The notes beneath the pieces are model-generated. The model was not told the DNA's origin, searched no databases, and saw only the letters and a list, made by a program, of their open reading frames with translations. From Phycisphaerae bacterium (GTDB lineage: Bacteria; Planctomycetota; Phycisphaerae; UBA1845; Fen-1342), in the NCBI GenBank assembly GCA_017999985.1, contig JAGNKU010000005.1:186001-250000 (forward strand): DNA of 64,000 bases, given 5' to 3'. Made by a program: the position numbers and the translations under genes. Positions 57,185 to 61,586 of the stretch are shown here, piece by piece (position 1 is the stretch's first letter; every line of letters starts with the position of its first letter).

Positions 57185-58807
57185 ATGCGCACCATTTTGG
57201 CCCTCACCGTCGGCCGGTTCGGCCTTGTGCTGCTGTGCGGCGTGCTGCTCGCTTCGGTCACCGTGCCGTCGCTGGCCCAGCCGGCGACCTCTGCGCCGAC
57301 CGCTCCCCGGCCGGCGACCGATGCGCGGCCGCGCGTGGCCGTCATCGGTTTCGAGCCCGATCCCGCGGGCGACGCGCGCGACACGTGGATTCCCGTCGCC
57401 CTCGAGGAACTGCTCGCCCGGCGTCTGCAGCGCGTGCCGAACCTCGTGATCGTGCCCACGCTGCGTCTGTACCAGGCGCGCAGCGAGCTTGGCGACCCGA
57501 ACGCGCCGCCGCCGTGGCCCGACATCGTGCGCGGCCTGGGCGCTGGATATATTCTCAGCGGGCGCTGCCAGGGACCAGACAACGCCATCACGCTCGAACT
57601 GACGTTGCAGCCGCTCGCGGAGGGCGCGGCGGGCTGGCAGACCACCATCCCGGCCGCGCGTCTGTTCGAGATGCTCGACCTGGCCACGCGCTGGACGCTG
57701 GAGCGATTTGAACTCACGCTCGATGATGCCACACGGACGGTCGTGCTGGCGACGCCCAGCCGCACACCCACCGCGGTCGAATACTACGCGCGGGCCCTGA
57801 TGGCCACGCGTGCCGATCAGTCGCGTGACGCCTTGCGCTTCGCCACGCTGGCGCTCGATCGCGACAAGCGTTTCCGGCCGGCACTCGCCCTGCTGGCGCA
57901 ACTGGAGATGCCGCTCGGTCCGTCCGGACGCGGCTCGGCGGGGCGGCGCTTTCGCGCCTTGAGCGACCTGGCGCGGCTCGAAAACGACCCGTTTGACCGT
58001 GTGCGCGCCGAGATCGGCCAGGCGCTGCTCCTGCAGGCCGATGACGCGTCGGACGCGGCCTACACGCGGGCGGAGACGGCCCTGGCGCTGGCCTACGAGT
58101 GCCGTGACGTCTACGGGCAAATGGCCGCCGTCACGGCAATTTGCGACGCGTACCTGCTCCGCGCGCTGCCGATCAACGGCACATCGTCGGAGGCGGACCG
58201 CGAGGCCCACACGCGCACCTGCGTGCAGCGCGCCATCGAGTGGCAGATCCTCCTCGTCGATCTGCTCACCGAGCTGGGCGACCAGATCGCCTGCCTGCCC
58301 GCCACCAACAAGCTCGCCCTGCTTTACGAGCGCGTCGGCGACACGGCGCGCGCCCTGGAGCTGCATCGCCGCACGCTCGCGCTGGCCGAGCAACTGCAGT
58401 CACGCCGCCACCAGGCGACGGCGTGGCTCTACATCGGCGAGTGGCACCGCGTGCAGAAACAATGGCCCGAGGCCCTCGCTGCGATCACCCGCTGCCTCGC
58501 CCTCGCCGACGAAGCGGCCAAGCCCCCCGTGCGCATCATTCTCGGCGGCGTGTACCAGGGCATGGGCCAGCGCGAAGAGGCCCTGGCGCAGTTCGAGCTC
58601 GCCTACGAACAGGTGCGCAAGACCGATGACCTCGGCAGTCAGTTCGCCTGCCTGCGCCAGATCGCCTCCGCCCACATGCAACTCGGTCGCCGCGATAAGG
58701 CGATCGCGGCCCTGCAGGAGGCCATCGACATCGCCCATGTGCTCGAGCTGCGCGAGGAGCAGGATCTGCGGACCGAATTGCACAAATGGCAGGATGGCGG
58801 GACCTGA
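57185..58807 (+). CDS. Exported TPR protein with TolB/FlgO-like N-terminal domain
   Basis: This is a 540-residue exported protein. GGAGGA lies eight bases before the ATG at 57185 and a signal peptide follows (FGLVLLCGVLLASVTVPSLA). Residues 50-165 (RVAVIGFEPDP, then LARRLQRVPNLVIVPTLRL, then GYILSGRCQGPDNAITLELT) resemble the TolB-N/CsgG/FlgO-type fold, often found in front of TPRs. Helical repeats fill the rest, the clearest being 370-530 (ARALELHRRTLALAEQLQSR; EALAAITRCLALADEA; KAIAALQEAIDIAHVL). A periplasmic or surface scaffold is likely. No enzymatic motif is present. Confidence 0.78.
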   Translation: MRTILALTVGRFGLVLLCGVLLASVTVPSLAQPATSAPTAPRPATDARPRVAVIGFEPDPAGDARDTWIPVALEELLARRLQRVPNLVIVPTLRLYQARSELGDPNAPPPWPDIVRGLGAGYILSGRCQGPDNAITLELTLQPLAEGAAGWQTTIPAARLFEMLDLATRWTLERFELTLDDATRTVVLATPSRTPTAVEYYARALMATRADQSRDALRFATLALDRDKRFRPALALLAQLEMPLGPSGRGSAGRRFRALSDLARLENDPFDRVRAEIGQALLLQADDASDAAYTRAETALALAYECRDVYGQMAAVTAICDAYLLRALPINGTSSEADREAHTRTCVQRAIEWQILLVDLLTELGDQIACLPATNKLALLYERVGDTARALELHRRTLALAEQLQSRRHQATAWLYIGEWHRVQKQWPEALAAITRCLALADEAAKPPVRIILGGVYQGMGQREEALAQFELAYEQVRKTDDLGSQFACLRQIASAHMQLGRRDKAIAALQEAIDIAHVLELREEQDLRTELHKWQDGGT

Positions 58808-58831: not shown

Positions 58832-59224
58832 TCAGTCGGCCGGCACCAGCATCCGGACGATTTCCGCGTTCGCGGCCGGCATTTCCAGCTCCGCCAGCTC
58901 CGCCGCCGTCACCCAGCGGCACTCCGTGCTTGCGAGCGCGCGGGCCTCGCCCGTGCGCCAGCGACAAACCACCGGCGTAAGCTGCACGATGCGGTCCGGG
59001 TATTCGTACGTGACGGTTGCGAGTGTGCGCAGCGGGTCGGCCAACATGTCACACTCCTCGCGCAATTCGCGGAGCGCGGCGTCGACACTGGTCTCGCCTG
59101 CCTGCACTTTGCCGCCCGGAAACTCCCACAGCCGCCCGAGATGCATATGCGGCCGTCGGCGTGCAACCAGCCAACGCTCATCGCGGCACACGAGCGCGAG
59201 CGCGATGGCAAACGTCGGCTTCAT
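58832..59224 (-). CDS. MutT-like Nudix hydrolase
   Basis: This is a roughly 130-residue cytosolic pyrophosphohydrolase. The Nudix box (38-60) starts GGKVQAGETSVDAAL and ends RELREECDM. It fits Gx5Ex7REUxEE, with Asp where Gly is usual near the end. LWEFPGGKV and the overall size match MutT/8-oxo-dGTP diphosphatases. The ATG at 59224 was chosen, and an in-frame GTG at 59239 is possible. Neither has a good ribosome site. It is convergent with the TPR gene (24 bases) and divergent from the structured region before the PyrK-like gene. Confidence 0.9.
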   Translation of the reverse strand: MKPTFAIALALVCRDERWLVARRRPHMHLGRLWEFPGGKVQAGETSVDAALRELREECDMLADPLRTLATVTYEYPDRIVQLTPVVCRWRTGEARALASTECRWVTAAELAELEMPAANAEIVRMLVPAD

Positions 59225-59355
59225 GCGCAACAGCGTCACTTAATGCAACCGATGCCGCAACGCAAATTCCTCCGGGGCGCAGGCAATGCGCCCCCGTTGC
59301 CGGCACAATCCCGTAACCGATCACGGATGCCTCTGCGACGCGCTCCAGTGGGAAT

Positions 59356-59384
59356 CTGACAAACCTAACTGTCTGTAATATAAT
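59356..59384 (+). promoter_or_regulatory. Strong sigma70-type promoter P1
   Basis: CTGACA (59356-59361), exactly 17 bases, then a perfect TATAAT (59379-59384), in an AT-rich island. It is among the best promoter matches in the window. Transcription would start near 59391 and run into the hairpin array and terminator. Confidence 0.65.
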
Positions 59385-59429
59385 GAGTTAAAGATATTCT
59401 ACCCCGCCCCCCAAAACGACTGCTTTAGG

Positions 59430-59458
59430 TGGACACGCGCCGGGCGATCTGATATAGT
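59430..59458 (+). promoter_or_regulatory. Second sigma70-type promoter P2
   Basis: TGGACA (59430-59435), exactly 17 bases, then TATAGT (59453-59458). Each box matches at five of six. GGCGATC (59443-59449) inside the spacer is complementary to GATCGCC at 59476-59482, so an operator or an alternative fold is possible. Confidence 0.5.
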
Positions 59459-59527
59459 CCCGGTGTCGGCGGTTTGATCGCCAGACGTTCATCGAACGGA
59501 ATTTGCGGCTGTTCTAGCCGTGGCGCG

Positions 59528-59569
59528 CTTCCGGGATCGGCCCCAGGGTTCGATCCCGGAAGTTTTTTT
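59528..59569 (+). terminator. Rho-independent terminator / attenuator
   Basis: CTTCCGGGATCG (59528-59539) pairs perfectly with CGATCCCGGAAG (59551-59562) across an 11-base loop and is followed by seven T (59563-59569). It is the only intrinsic terminator with a U-tract that I found in the window. It acts on plus-strand transcripts and stands in front of, not behind, a gene. Confidence 0.85.
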
Positions 59570-59628
59570 GACAGACCCATCGTCGTCCGCGTACCGTTCT
59601 GGCACGCTGTGCGAAGTTCCTGACTGCA

Positions 59629-60606
59629 ATGAATTCAGTAACGACACTCCAAAGGCAATGCGCGGTCGACGCCGTCGTCGTGGATTGCATCCCGATCTGT
59701 CGCGAGCACATCGCGCTGGAGTTGGCGCCCCCTGCTTTTCCTGACAGCACGCCGGGCCAATTCGTACAACTGCTCTGTCGCAGCGCAACGGAGCCGGAAA
59801 CGGAGGCGCTCGCGTGGCCTGCCGACGGGTTTCCGTCTCTGTCCGCGCACTTCTCCGCCCAGGAACCCTTATTGCGCCGCCCGTTCAGCATCGCGGACCA
59901 CTGGATCGACGGCACCGGCCAGGCCCGGCTGCGTGTGATCTCGCGCGCGGTCGGTGCTGGTACCCGCTGGCTGGCGCAGCTCCAGGCCGGTGACACGCTC
60001 AATCTGACGGGCCCGCTCGGACGTGGTTTTTGCCTGCCGTCGCCAGAAACGCCGGTGGTGCTCGTGGGCGGGGGTGTCGGCATTCCGCCGCTGATGTACT
60101 TGGCGCGTCGCCTGTACGACTTGGGGCACCGCGACGTCGTCGCGATCTTCGGCGCCACGACGCGCGACCTGCTGCCCCTGCGGCTTACGGCCGAGCCGCC
60201 GCACGCAGCCACGCCGACCGTTTGTGCGGTGCTGCCGGGCGCCGCCGCGTTCCCCGCCATCCTCACGAGCGATGACGGCACGCTGGGATTGCGCGGGCGC
60301 GTGACCGACGCATTGGCGGCCTGGCACGCGCGTTACGCGGACCCGCGACGTCCGGCGCTCGTGTGTGCGTGCGGTCCGGACGCCATGCTGCGCGCCGTTG
60401 CCGACCTGACTCGCGCGCACGGGCTGGCATGCCAGTTGTGCATCGAACGTCCGATGGGCTGCGGGGTCGGCACCTGCCTGTCGTGCGTGGTGCGGCGCGC
60501 TGACGCGGAGCATGCCGCCGGGTGGCGCTGGGCACTGACCTGCACCGACGGACCGGTGTTTGCCCGCGACGATTTGCTCGACTATGGGCCGGTGCGGAGC
60601 GCATAA
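59629..60606 (+). CDS. PyrK-like FAD/NAD/[2Fe-2S] electron-transfer reductase
   Basis: This is a 325-residue ferredoxin-reductase-family protein resembling the electron-transfer subunit of type 1B dihydroorotate dehydrogenase. The FAD site is LLRRPFSIAD (81-90), the NAD site is VGGGVGIPPLMYLA (146-159) and a CGP follows at 248-250. The [2Fe-2S] cysteines are C278, C283 and C286 in ERPMGCGVGTCLSCV, plus C305 in LTCTDGPVF. An insert of about 25 residues precedes the FAD motif, making it longer than usual. No PyrD or other partner gene is adjacent, so the electron acceptor is uncertain. It stands behind a structured, terminator-bearing leader. No ribosome site is visible before 59629. Confidence 0.87.
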   Translation: MNSVTTLQRQCAVDAVVVDCIPICREHIALELAPPAFPDSTPGQFVQLLCRSATEPETEALAWPADGFPSLSAHFSAQEPLLRRPFSIADHWIDGTGQARLRVISRAVGAGTRWLAQLQAGDTLNLTGPLGRGFCLPSPETPVVLVGGGVGIPPLMYLARRLYDLGHRDVVAIFGATTRDLLPLRLTAEPPHAATPTVCAVLPGAAAFPAILTSDDGTLGLRGRVTDALAAWHARYADPRRPALVCACGPDAMLRAVADLTRAHGLACQLCIERPMGCGVGTCLSCVVRRADAEHAAGWRWALTCTDGPVFARDDLLDYGPVRSA

Positions 60607-60629
60607 TGTAAGTTGAACAGGAGTTGACC

Positions 60630-61586
60630 ATGCGACGGAGCGCGGCGTGTGCGGTAATCATCCTGACCGGCGCGGTTCTGCTGGCCTGCGTCGGTTGTCA
60701 GGCGGTGGGGCTGCGGTTCCTCAGCCTCATCGGCCTCCAGAAAGATCCGCTCTCGATCGCCCTCGTCGTCAACCAGCCGGGCGCGGTGGCGGCCGCCGCC
60801 GTCAATCCGTTCCCGGATTTCGCCGGGTTGCAGAAGGCGCTGTCGGATGACCTCCGGCGCCCGGTGGCGGTCGACCTGTGTTTTCCGTTTCAAGTTGAAT
60901 CGGAATTGAGATCGGGCTGGTACGAGCTCGCGATGCTGCCGCCGTTCGCGTATGCGACGCTCAAGGAGACGCCCCCCTTGCCCGTGCTGGCAGTGGCGGT
61001 CGACGAGCACGGACAGGCCGCCCGCGGCGCTGTGCTGGTCGTGCCCGCGCGGTCTGACATTCAGGCCATCGCCGACCTGCGCGGCAAAATCGTGGCTTTC
61101 GGCCCGGCCGGCGACGACCGCACGCACTATGCGGCGCTGCAATTGCTGCAAAGCGTCGGGCTGCGCGAGACCGACCTGTCGCTGGAACTGCTGCCCGTGC
61201 CGCGTTCGCTGAAGCACCTGCCCGACATGCGCAGTGTCGCCCAGACGGTCATCAATAACAGCTCTGACGCCGGCTTCATCGATGAGGCCGCCTGGAACGC
61301 CCTGCCCGAACACACGACCAAGGAAAACGAGCCCGCGCGCAGCCAACTGCGCGTCATCGGCCGCACCGTCGCCCTCCCCTGTCGCCTGGTCGTCGCATCG
61401 CCCAAGCTGGATTCCGCCACCGTCGCCGAAGTGCGCGAGTTCCTGCTCTCCGCGGACACGAAGCACCCGCAGGCACTGCAGCCGCTGAAATTGTCGGATT
61501 TTCAACCCCCCACCGAGGCCATCCTCACCGCATGCCGCGCGCTGCGCCCACCGACCAGCTCGTCGGCCGAGCCGCCTCCACCGTAG
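60630..61586 (+). CDS. PhnD-like substrate-binding lipoprotein
   Basis: This is a 318-residue lipoprotein with a signal sequence (VIILTGAVLLACVGC) and lipobox cysteine near residue 23. The body resembles the phosphate/phosphite/phosphonate (PhnD) periplasmic binding-protein fold: an N-terminal lobe ending YELAMLPPFAYATLKE, then RSDIQAIADLRGKIVAFGPA and a SSDAGFIDEAAW stretch. AGGAG lies nine bases before the ATG at 60630. It starts 24 bases after the PyrK-like gene, so they are probably co-transcribed. No ATPase or permease of a Phn-type importer is nearby. The ligand is unknown and need not be a phosphonate. Confidence 0.8.
   Translation: MRRSAACAVIILTGAVLLACVGCQAVGLRFLSLIGLQKDPLSIALVVNQPGAVAAAAVNPFPDFAGLQKALSDDLRRPVAVDLCFPFQVESELRSGWYELAMLPPFAYATLKETPPLPVLAVAVDEHGQAARGAVLVVPARSDIQAIADLRGKIVAFGPAGDDRTHYAALQLLQSVGLRETDLSLELLPVPRSLKHLPDMRSVAQTVINNSSDAGFIDEAAWNALPEHTTKENEPARSQLRVIGRTVALPCRLVVASPKLDSATVAEVREFLLSADTKHPQALQPLKLSDFQPPTEAILTACRALRPPTSSSAEPPPP

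Follow-up and report, generated by a model that had tools for sequence, protein, structure and literature searches.

Bacterial RNAs that meet by base pairing take several described forms. CopA/CopT is an antisense pair of the loop-linear or kissing kind, in which a hairpin loop meeting an exposed segment starts the pairing. C-rich small RNAs (sRNAs) directed against the Shine-Dalgarno (SD) sequence include RsaE of Staphylococcus aureus and the CCUCC families of Alphaproteobacteria. Sponge RNAs derived from mRNA 3′ untranslated regions (3′ UTRs) are also known, as in the pairs SroC/GcvB and SkatA/PrrF1 (PMC9438474). Our literature searches returned nothing on sRNAs that act by base pairing in Planctomycetota and no description of the RNA reported here, which we call RNA-A. 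The older candidate Rhodopirellula-1 is listed for Proteobacteria and Planctomycetes in a text that carries no sequence (PMC2864571); RNA-A has no convincing copy beyond its class. We analyzed a 64,000-nucleotide stretch of DNA (the window, G000:C5:186001–250000, where G000 is the window's own genome; its family is called f1). By the sequence comparisons below, RNA-A is a previously uncatalogued small-RNA gene spread across the class Phycisphaerae, and a second hairpin, RNA-B, is its candidate antisense partner.

RNA-A in the window and across the class

The two sites P1 and P2 are the sole promoter-like sequences in the 2.1 kb between positions 58500 and 60600, where shuffled sequence would be expected to hold 0.2 (Table 1). 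They are followed by three short hairpins and a perfect 12-bp terminator stem (59528–59562), after which seven T reach position 59569, 59 bases short of the start of a PyrK-like gene. All of these parts had been listed in a preliminary description of the locus, and all are present in the sequence. For the 114-nt stretch, the computed folding energy is −53.3 kcal/mol (z = −4.1), a stability equaled by 0 of 200 shuffles. We placed the predicted start of RNA-A ∼7 nt past the −10 hexamer, and the transcripts predicted across the class have a median length of 109 nt. A pattern scan that allows terminator loops of at most 8 bases passed over the RNA-A terminator, because its loop exceeds that length.

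Table 1. Features of the RNA-A locus, its neighbors, and the RNA-B site of the same genome (window positions unless a contig is named)
Feature	Position	Strand	Basis or remark
P1 promoter-like site, CTGACA-N17-TATAAT	59356–59384	+	Scan; unconserved in relatives
P2 promoter of RNA-A, TGGACA-N17-TATAGT	59430–59458	+	Promoter scan; 24/24 same-family loci
RNA-A, predicted transcript of ∼105 nt	59465–59569	+	Fold and conservation; both ends predicted
5′ hairpins H1 (59468–59482) and H2 (59486–59498)	59468–59498	+	Sequence unconserved
Hairpin H3, CGGCU-loop-AGCCG	59506–59520	+	Conserved; stem nearly invariant, loop 2–12 nt
Conserved core AGCCGUGGCGCGCUUCC	59516–59532	+	Alignment of RNA-A copies
RNA-A intrinsic terminator	59528–59569	+	Conserved stem base, covarying upper stem
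Nudix hydrolase (MutT-like), upstream divergent neighbor	58832–59239	−	Adjoins RNA-A in f1, f4, f13, f20, and f22
PyrK-like electron-transfer subunit, downstream neighbor	59629–60606	+	PyrD next in f13–f15, f21, f25, f28, and f29
PhnD-like substrate-binding protein, neighbor only	60624–61586	+	
RNA-B in the window's own genome	G000:C1:59393–59447 (= L341:1501–1555)	−	Model search; loop CCAAGCGCGCCACGGCUA

A DNA search found the element in 75 of 200 relatives, with its conserved portion at 59494–59570, and a covariance model found RNA-A in 181 of 397 Phycisphaerae genomes, essentially one copy each. Second matches, where present, are opposite-strand matches to the palindromic terminator. The covariance model gave no convincing copy in other Planctomycetota; two ∼30-bit matches from one genus outside the class were rejected, as they lack GCCGUGG and resemble ordinary terminators. 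Named records in a loose pattern scan came mostly from Phycisphaerae (Planctomycetota), and its scattered matches in other phyla are expected because the pattern is loose.

Only one of the two tandem promoters shares this conservation. P2 recurs throughout the family (Table 1), whereas P1 is found at a score of at least 10/12 in 0 of 23 other same-family loci and probably lies outside the RNA-A system. Class-wide, a sigma-70-type site scoring at least 10/12 stands just upstream of RNA-A at 79 of 106 loci, with 1.8 expected; in most f8 loci, no promoter site was found within 160 nt upstream. The GGCGATC/GATCGCC pair once singled out as a feature has to be given up, since it draws on bases of the P2 spacer, which precede the transcript made from P2, and relatives do not keep the partner.

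In an alignment of 70 RNA-A copies, the H3 hairpin is near-invariant and the linker UGGCG is invariant. The core comprises the 3′ arm of H3, this linker, and the opening bases of the terminator stem. The base of that stem is conserved in sequence (CUUCCGG/CCGGAAG, or CCUCCGG/CCGGAGG in f7), its first five bases being CUUCC at 93 of 106 loci, CCUCC at 8, CCCCC at 2, and GCUCC at 1. When the set is widened to 93 copies, changes on both sides appear at 10 of the 12 terminator pairs; overall, 96.7% of RNA-A stem cells are paired, with 173 both-side changes vs. 43 in shuffles. The compensatory changes looked for in relatives are found in the upper terminator stem. The H3 stem gives no covariation support because it hardly varies, and the alignment indicates that its sequence itself is constrained. 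Hairpin conservation holds for H3 and the terminator and fails for the sequences of H1 and H2. A 5′ hairpin of some sort occupies the H1/H2 position in many relatives, the 5′ part has a mean folding z of only −0.5 (79 loci), and structure there is weakly supported. Two f15 loci (L283, L284) have ∼25–35 extra nt inserted in the H3 loop, and the insertion is itself hairpin-like. We also considered a small protein inside RNA-A and rejected it: the H3 loops vary over 2–12 nt in steps that are not multiples of three, which excludes a conserved reading frame, and the frames are about equally open. With its own promoter and terminator and no conserved reading frame, RNA-A has the makeup of a stand-alone sRNA gene, and P2, H3, and the terminator are, on this comparative evidence, parts of a single-copy RNA gene.

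The locus could not initially be matched to a known class, and Rfam was likewise negative: the window has no match in Rfam 15 at the curated threshold, and at E ≤ 10 the surroundings of RNA-A give only chance-level matches of 13–15 bits. Like RNA-A, 6S RNA (RF00013) is a class-wide single-copy noncoding RNA. We rejected it as an identity for RNA-A, since its model is unmatched at 59200–59700 and the same genome has a separate locus, its sole 6S-like one, at G000:C11:51061–51242 (− strand; 44.7 bits, family cutoff 46.4). The 6S scores of relatives mostly lie near the 46.4-bit cutoff too, and this 6S type seems under-recognized.

RNA-B and the Lys-rich peptide gene

An antisense scan of 25 genomes gave, besides RNA-A itself and mostly uninformative matches, two sites (G005 and G010) that lie in the loops of terminator-like hairpins and share one gene neighborhood. 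A first model of RNA-B, built from these two hairpins, found the hairpin in 62 of 110 relatives, and a broader one found it in 157 of 397 genomes of the class. In the window's own genome, RNA-A positions 59515–59530 are perfectly complementary, over 16 bases, to the RNA-B loop CCAAGCGCGCCACGGCUA. The loop core GCCACGGC is present in 49 of 49 aligned rows, with free loop flanks and covariation in 11 of 13 stem pairs, and it is the exact complement of the invariant RNA-A segment GCCGUGGC. This invariance is no mere product of the search, because many RNA-B matches score well above threshold. Perfect complementarity in cognate pairs extends over 8–17 bases, and cognate RNAs are predicted to bind better than permuted ones (P = 0.0026 in f1 and 0.018 in the other families, relatedness ignored). 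Where RNA-A reads GCCGUGGCA, in f21, two of the three partners compared (G198 and G269) carry U opposite A.

The two RNAs also occur together. Both are present in 128 genomes (odds ratio 15.6, Fisher test, relatedness ignored), RNA-B without detected RNA-A in 29, and RNA-A without RNA-B in 53. Two f23 genomes (L418 in G412, L424 in G296) retain the RNA-B loop core, and a sensitive re-search of them gave no convincing RNA-A; its sequence may have drifted too far, or the assembly may lack it. At 16 of 18 f8 loci, a second loop with CGCCACGG lies 52–63 nt upstream, outside the searched model, against 0.16 expected. Nested two-strand folding lent the loop contact no support: it did not pick the contact, and loop-shuffled controls did equally well. 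The contact would be of the kissing type, which such co-folding cannot represent. Conserved complementarity of the kind that marks an sRNA with an mRNA-borne partner or sponge is thus found, and at the level of sequence the RNA-A/RNA-B pairing is well supported.

Beyond f1, RNA-B forms the end of an mRNA for a tiny Lys/Ala-rich peptide (MAKKKAKKKV...). The SD of this gene is strong, typically AAAGGAGGTGA, and its ORF, 15–101 codons long, begins MAKKKAKKKVAKKK and is about 45–75% Lys+Arg. A fixed rule placed it upstream of RNA-B at 66 of 73 non-f1 loci. Among the seven failures, five have a Lys-rich tail or end, truncated either at the edge of the sequence compared or by the rule. Another is masked, and the last, G312 (f24), has neither peptide gene nor RNA-B loop core. 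A promoter stands just upstream of the peptide gene at 35 of 58 loci, with 0.96 expected. Pfam has no family for these Lys-rich peptides; to judge from composition, the peptide may act on the nucleoid. Among relatives (L363, L367–L392, L400–L435), the gene is class-wide, unnamed, and very variable in length. The window's own family differs, with a peptide gene before RNA-B in 0 of 25 loci and a TTGCNN-18-CAAGAT element 66–71 nt upstream of RNA-B in 8 of 25 (0.1 expected). Because no peptide gene precedes it and this promoter-like element does, RNA-B in f1 looks like a separate RNA.

The RNA-A core is also complementary to GGAGG(U)...AUGGCU in the peptide start region, with a mean pairing energy of −19.1 kcal/mol (one shortened site being counted as zero) vs. 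−10.1 for shuffled sequence. The possible contacts are CYUCC with GGAGG, the SD, and AGCCGU with AUGGCU; both CUUCC, by way of one G-U, and CCUCC are able to pair with GGAGG. Other strong-SD genes reach a mean of −15.9 kcal/mol, and seven of these that also start with Met-Ala reach −19.5, equaling the peptide gene. We therefore rejected specific targeting of the peptide ribosome binding site (RBS), with which RNA-A may plausibly pair but for which it shows no preference. What singles out the peptide mRNA would then have to be the loop or loops of its 3′ UTR.

Proposed circuit and competing readings

We consider it probable that RNA-A is a stand-alone, trans-acting base-pairing sRNA that regulates the peptide mRNA and is titrated by it. 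The complementarity and the link to the peptide gene are read from the genomes, and from them we infer pairing in the cell, repression, and a decoy role. The seed AGCCGUGGCG, in which the 3′ arm of H3 is joined to the exposed UGGCG linker, would pair with CGCCACGGCU in the apical loop of RNA-B, contact beginning at the single-stranded UGGCG and then opening H3. The core would also contact the SD and start region of the peptide mRNA, and RNA-A would thereby reduce its expression or translation. The terminator loop of the 3′ UTR, which mimics the start region, might be a docking site or a decoy that sets the level of free RNA-A. In f1, where the peptide gene is absent from the locus, RNA-B would be a separate decoy RNA. 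Hfq, sought with PF17209 only, was found in 0 of 61 genomes while the controls were positive, which leaves RNA-A outside the definition of an Hfq-dependent sRNA. A broader picture, which we offer tentatively and with more doubt than belief, is a class-wide, Hfq-less two-RNA circuit in which an sRNA core antisense to a generic strong RBS and Met-Ala start is countered by a start-mimicking terminator loop, so dosing a histone-like Lys-rich peptide, with one family reduced to the decoy.

RNA-A might instead act on other strong-SD, Met-Ala-start mRNAs or on unknown ones, the peptide 3′ UTR being mainly a sponge, as in enterobacteria. The unspecific RBS pairing and the two loops of f8 both suit such an arrangement. 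So does f1, where the loop, at times with its promoter-like element, is kept at a locus that has no peptide gene, so that the contact between the RNAs outlives the peptide; sponging by 3′ UTR fragments is itself documented for SroC and others (PMC9438474). However, no conserved alternative target emerged from the largely uninformative 25-genome antisense scan, and we judge this possibility unlikely.

A type I toxin-antitoxin-like pair, with a toxic Lys-rich peptide and RNA-A as its RNA antitoxin, would account for a tiny peptide, a strong SD, and a trans RNA complementary to the mRNA. We find it highly improbable: the system is essentially single-copy, vertical-looking, and class-wide, the predicted peptide is highly basic rather than hydrophobic, and f1 retains both RNAs at loci from which the peptide is missing.

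Equally hard to sustain is a cis-acting leader that would control the PyrK-like operon by conditional termination at 59569, the role once proposed for the element with respect to the reductase and PhnD-like genes. Its best argument is gene order, since the PyrK-like gene lies downstream on the same strand at 72 of 106 loci and PyrD follows it in seven families beyond the window's order. At the remaining loci, however, the PyrK-like gene is absent nearby (33, or 31 without the two doubtful out-of-class matches) or divergent (1), and in several lineages RNA-A persists with its promoter although PyrK is lacking, divergent, or located elsewhere. RNA-A is present in G047, a 100% complete genome with no PyrK-like match, and it outlasts the loss of both genes of the proposed operon. 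Its downstream neighbor can be a DegT-type aminotransferase gene (f4), PanC (f8, genus g34), a HAD hydrolase gene (f17), a lysyl-tRNA-synthetase-like gene (f12), or an oppositely oriented gene. Moreover, the longest complement available as an antiterminator is 6.06 vs. 5.89 in shuffles, none is conserved, and the terminator is intact at the loci inspected. A pyrK attenuator or riboswitch would call for both a constant downstream gene and a conserved antiterminator. Because the gene is absent or divergent at some loci and no antiterminator is conserved, RNA-A is, as a predicted transcript, a stand-alone RNA rather than a PyrK leader. The preliminary description had held this as its other option, an RNA of ∼105 bases, and that option is borne out by a conserved promoter and terminator, both retained at loci that lack the downstream gene or have it in the opposite orientation. 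The adjacency of RNA-A to pyrK(D) has the look of a gene order kept by descent. On the upstream side, an SRP54/Ffh-like divergent gene replaces Nudix in f7 (L098, L099, L100, L297, L298; by eye).

A protein-mediated action of RNA-A, with CsrA as one possible binder, is scarcely credible: the CsrA gene is present in 34 of 36 genomes, against 0 of 61 for Hfq, and terminator loops hold GGA in f12, f13, f21, f22, f25, f28, and f29, but nearly no loop does in the window's order, and the antisense partner would be left unexplained. A CsrB/RsmZ-like CsrA sponge, which would display several exposed GGA motifs, was rejected, with at most one GGA in the terminator apical loop, the only loop tested. Beyond the window's order, terminator loops often read AGUGGAU, AUAGGAG, or AUCGGAG and resemble CsrA sites (L097, L101, L262–L266, L269–L272, L275–L282).

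Comparison with described systems

The pair adds an sRNA family that spans the class, together with its specific candidate partner, in genomes where no Hfq gene could be detected. It also presents one mRNA terminator that doubles as a candidate sRNA pairing site, and it brings to light a tiny Lys-rich peptide whose gene is widespread and unnamed.

Like C-rich anti-SD sRNAs such as RsaE, RNA-A has a CYUCC segment able to pair with the SD; unlike them, it holds this segment in a terminator stem, not a free loop, and joined to a conserved anti-start segment. With CopA/CopT the pair shares a proposed first contact of hairpin loop with exposed segment, but RNA-A and RNA-B are separately encoded and have only 8–17 complementary bases. 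SroC/GcvB and SkatA/PrrF1 resemble RNA-B in that an mRNA 3′ end is complementary to a trans-encoded sRNA, of which the parental mRNA is possibly a target. Those best-known sponges concern Hfq-associated sRNAs of Proteobacteria, whereas no Hfq gene was found for the Phycisphaerae pair. RNA-B also differs from sponges of the SroC type in that its site is the apical loop of a terminator, is class-wide, and mimics an mRNA start region. Sponges derived from 3′ UTRs are known elsewhere (PMC9438474), but a start-mimicking terminator loop, kept across a class in which Hfq was not found, is, as far as we have checked, a new arrangement.
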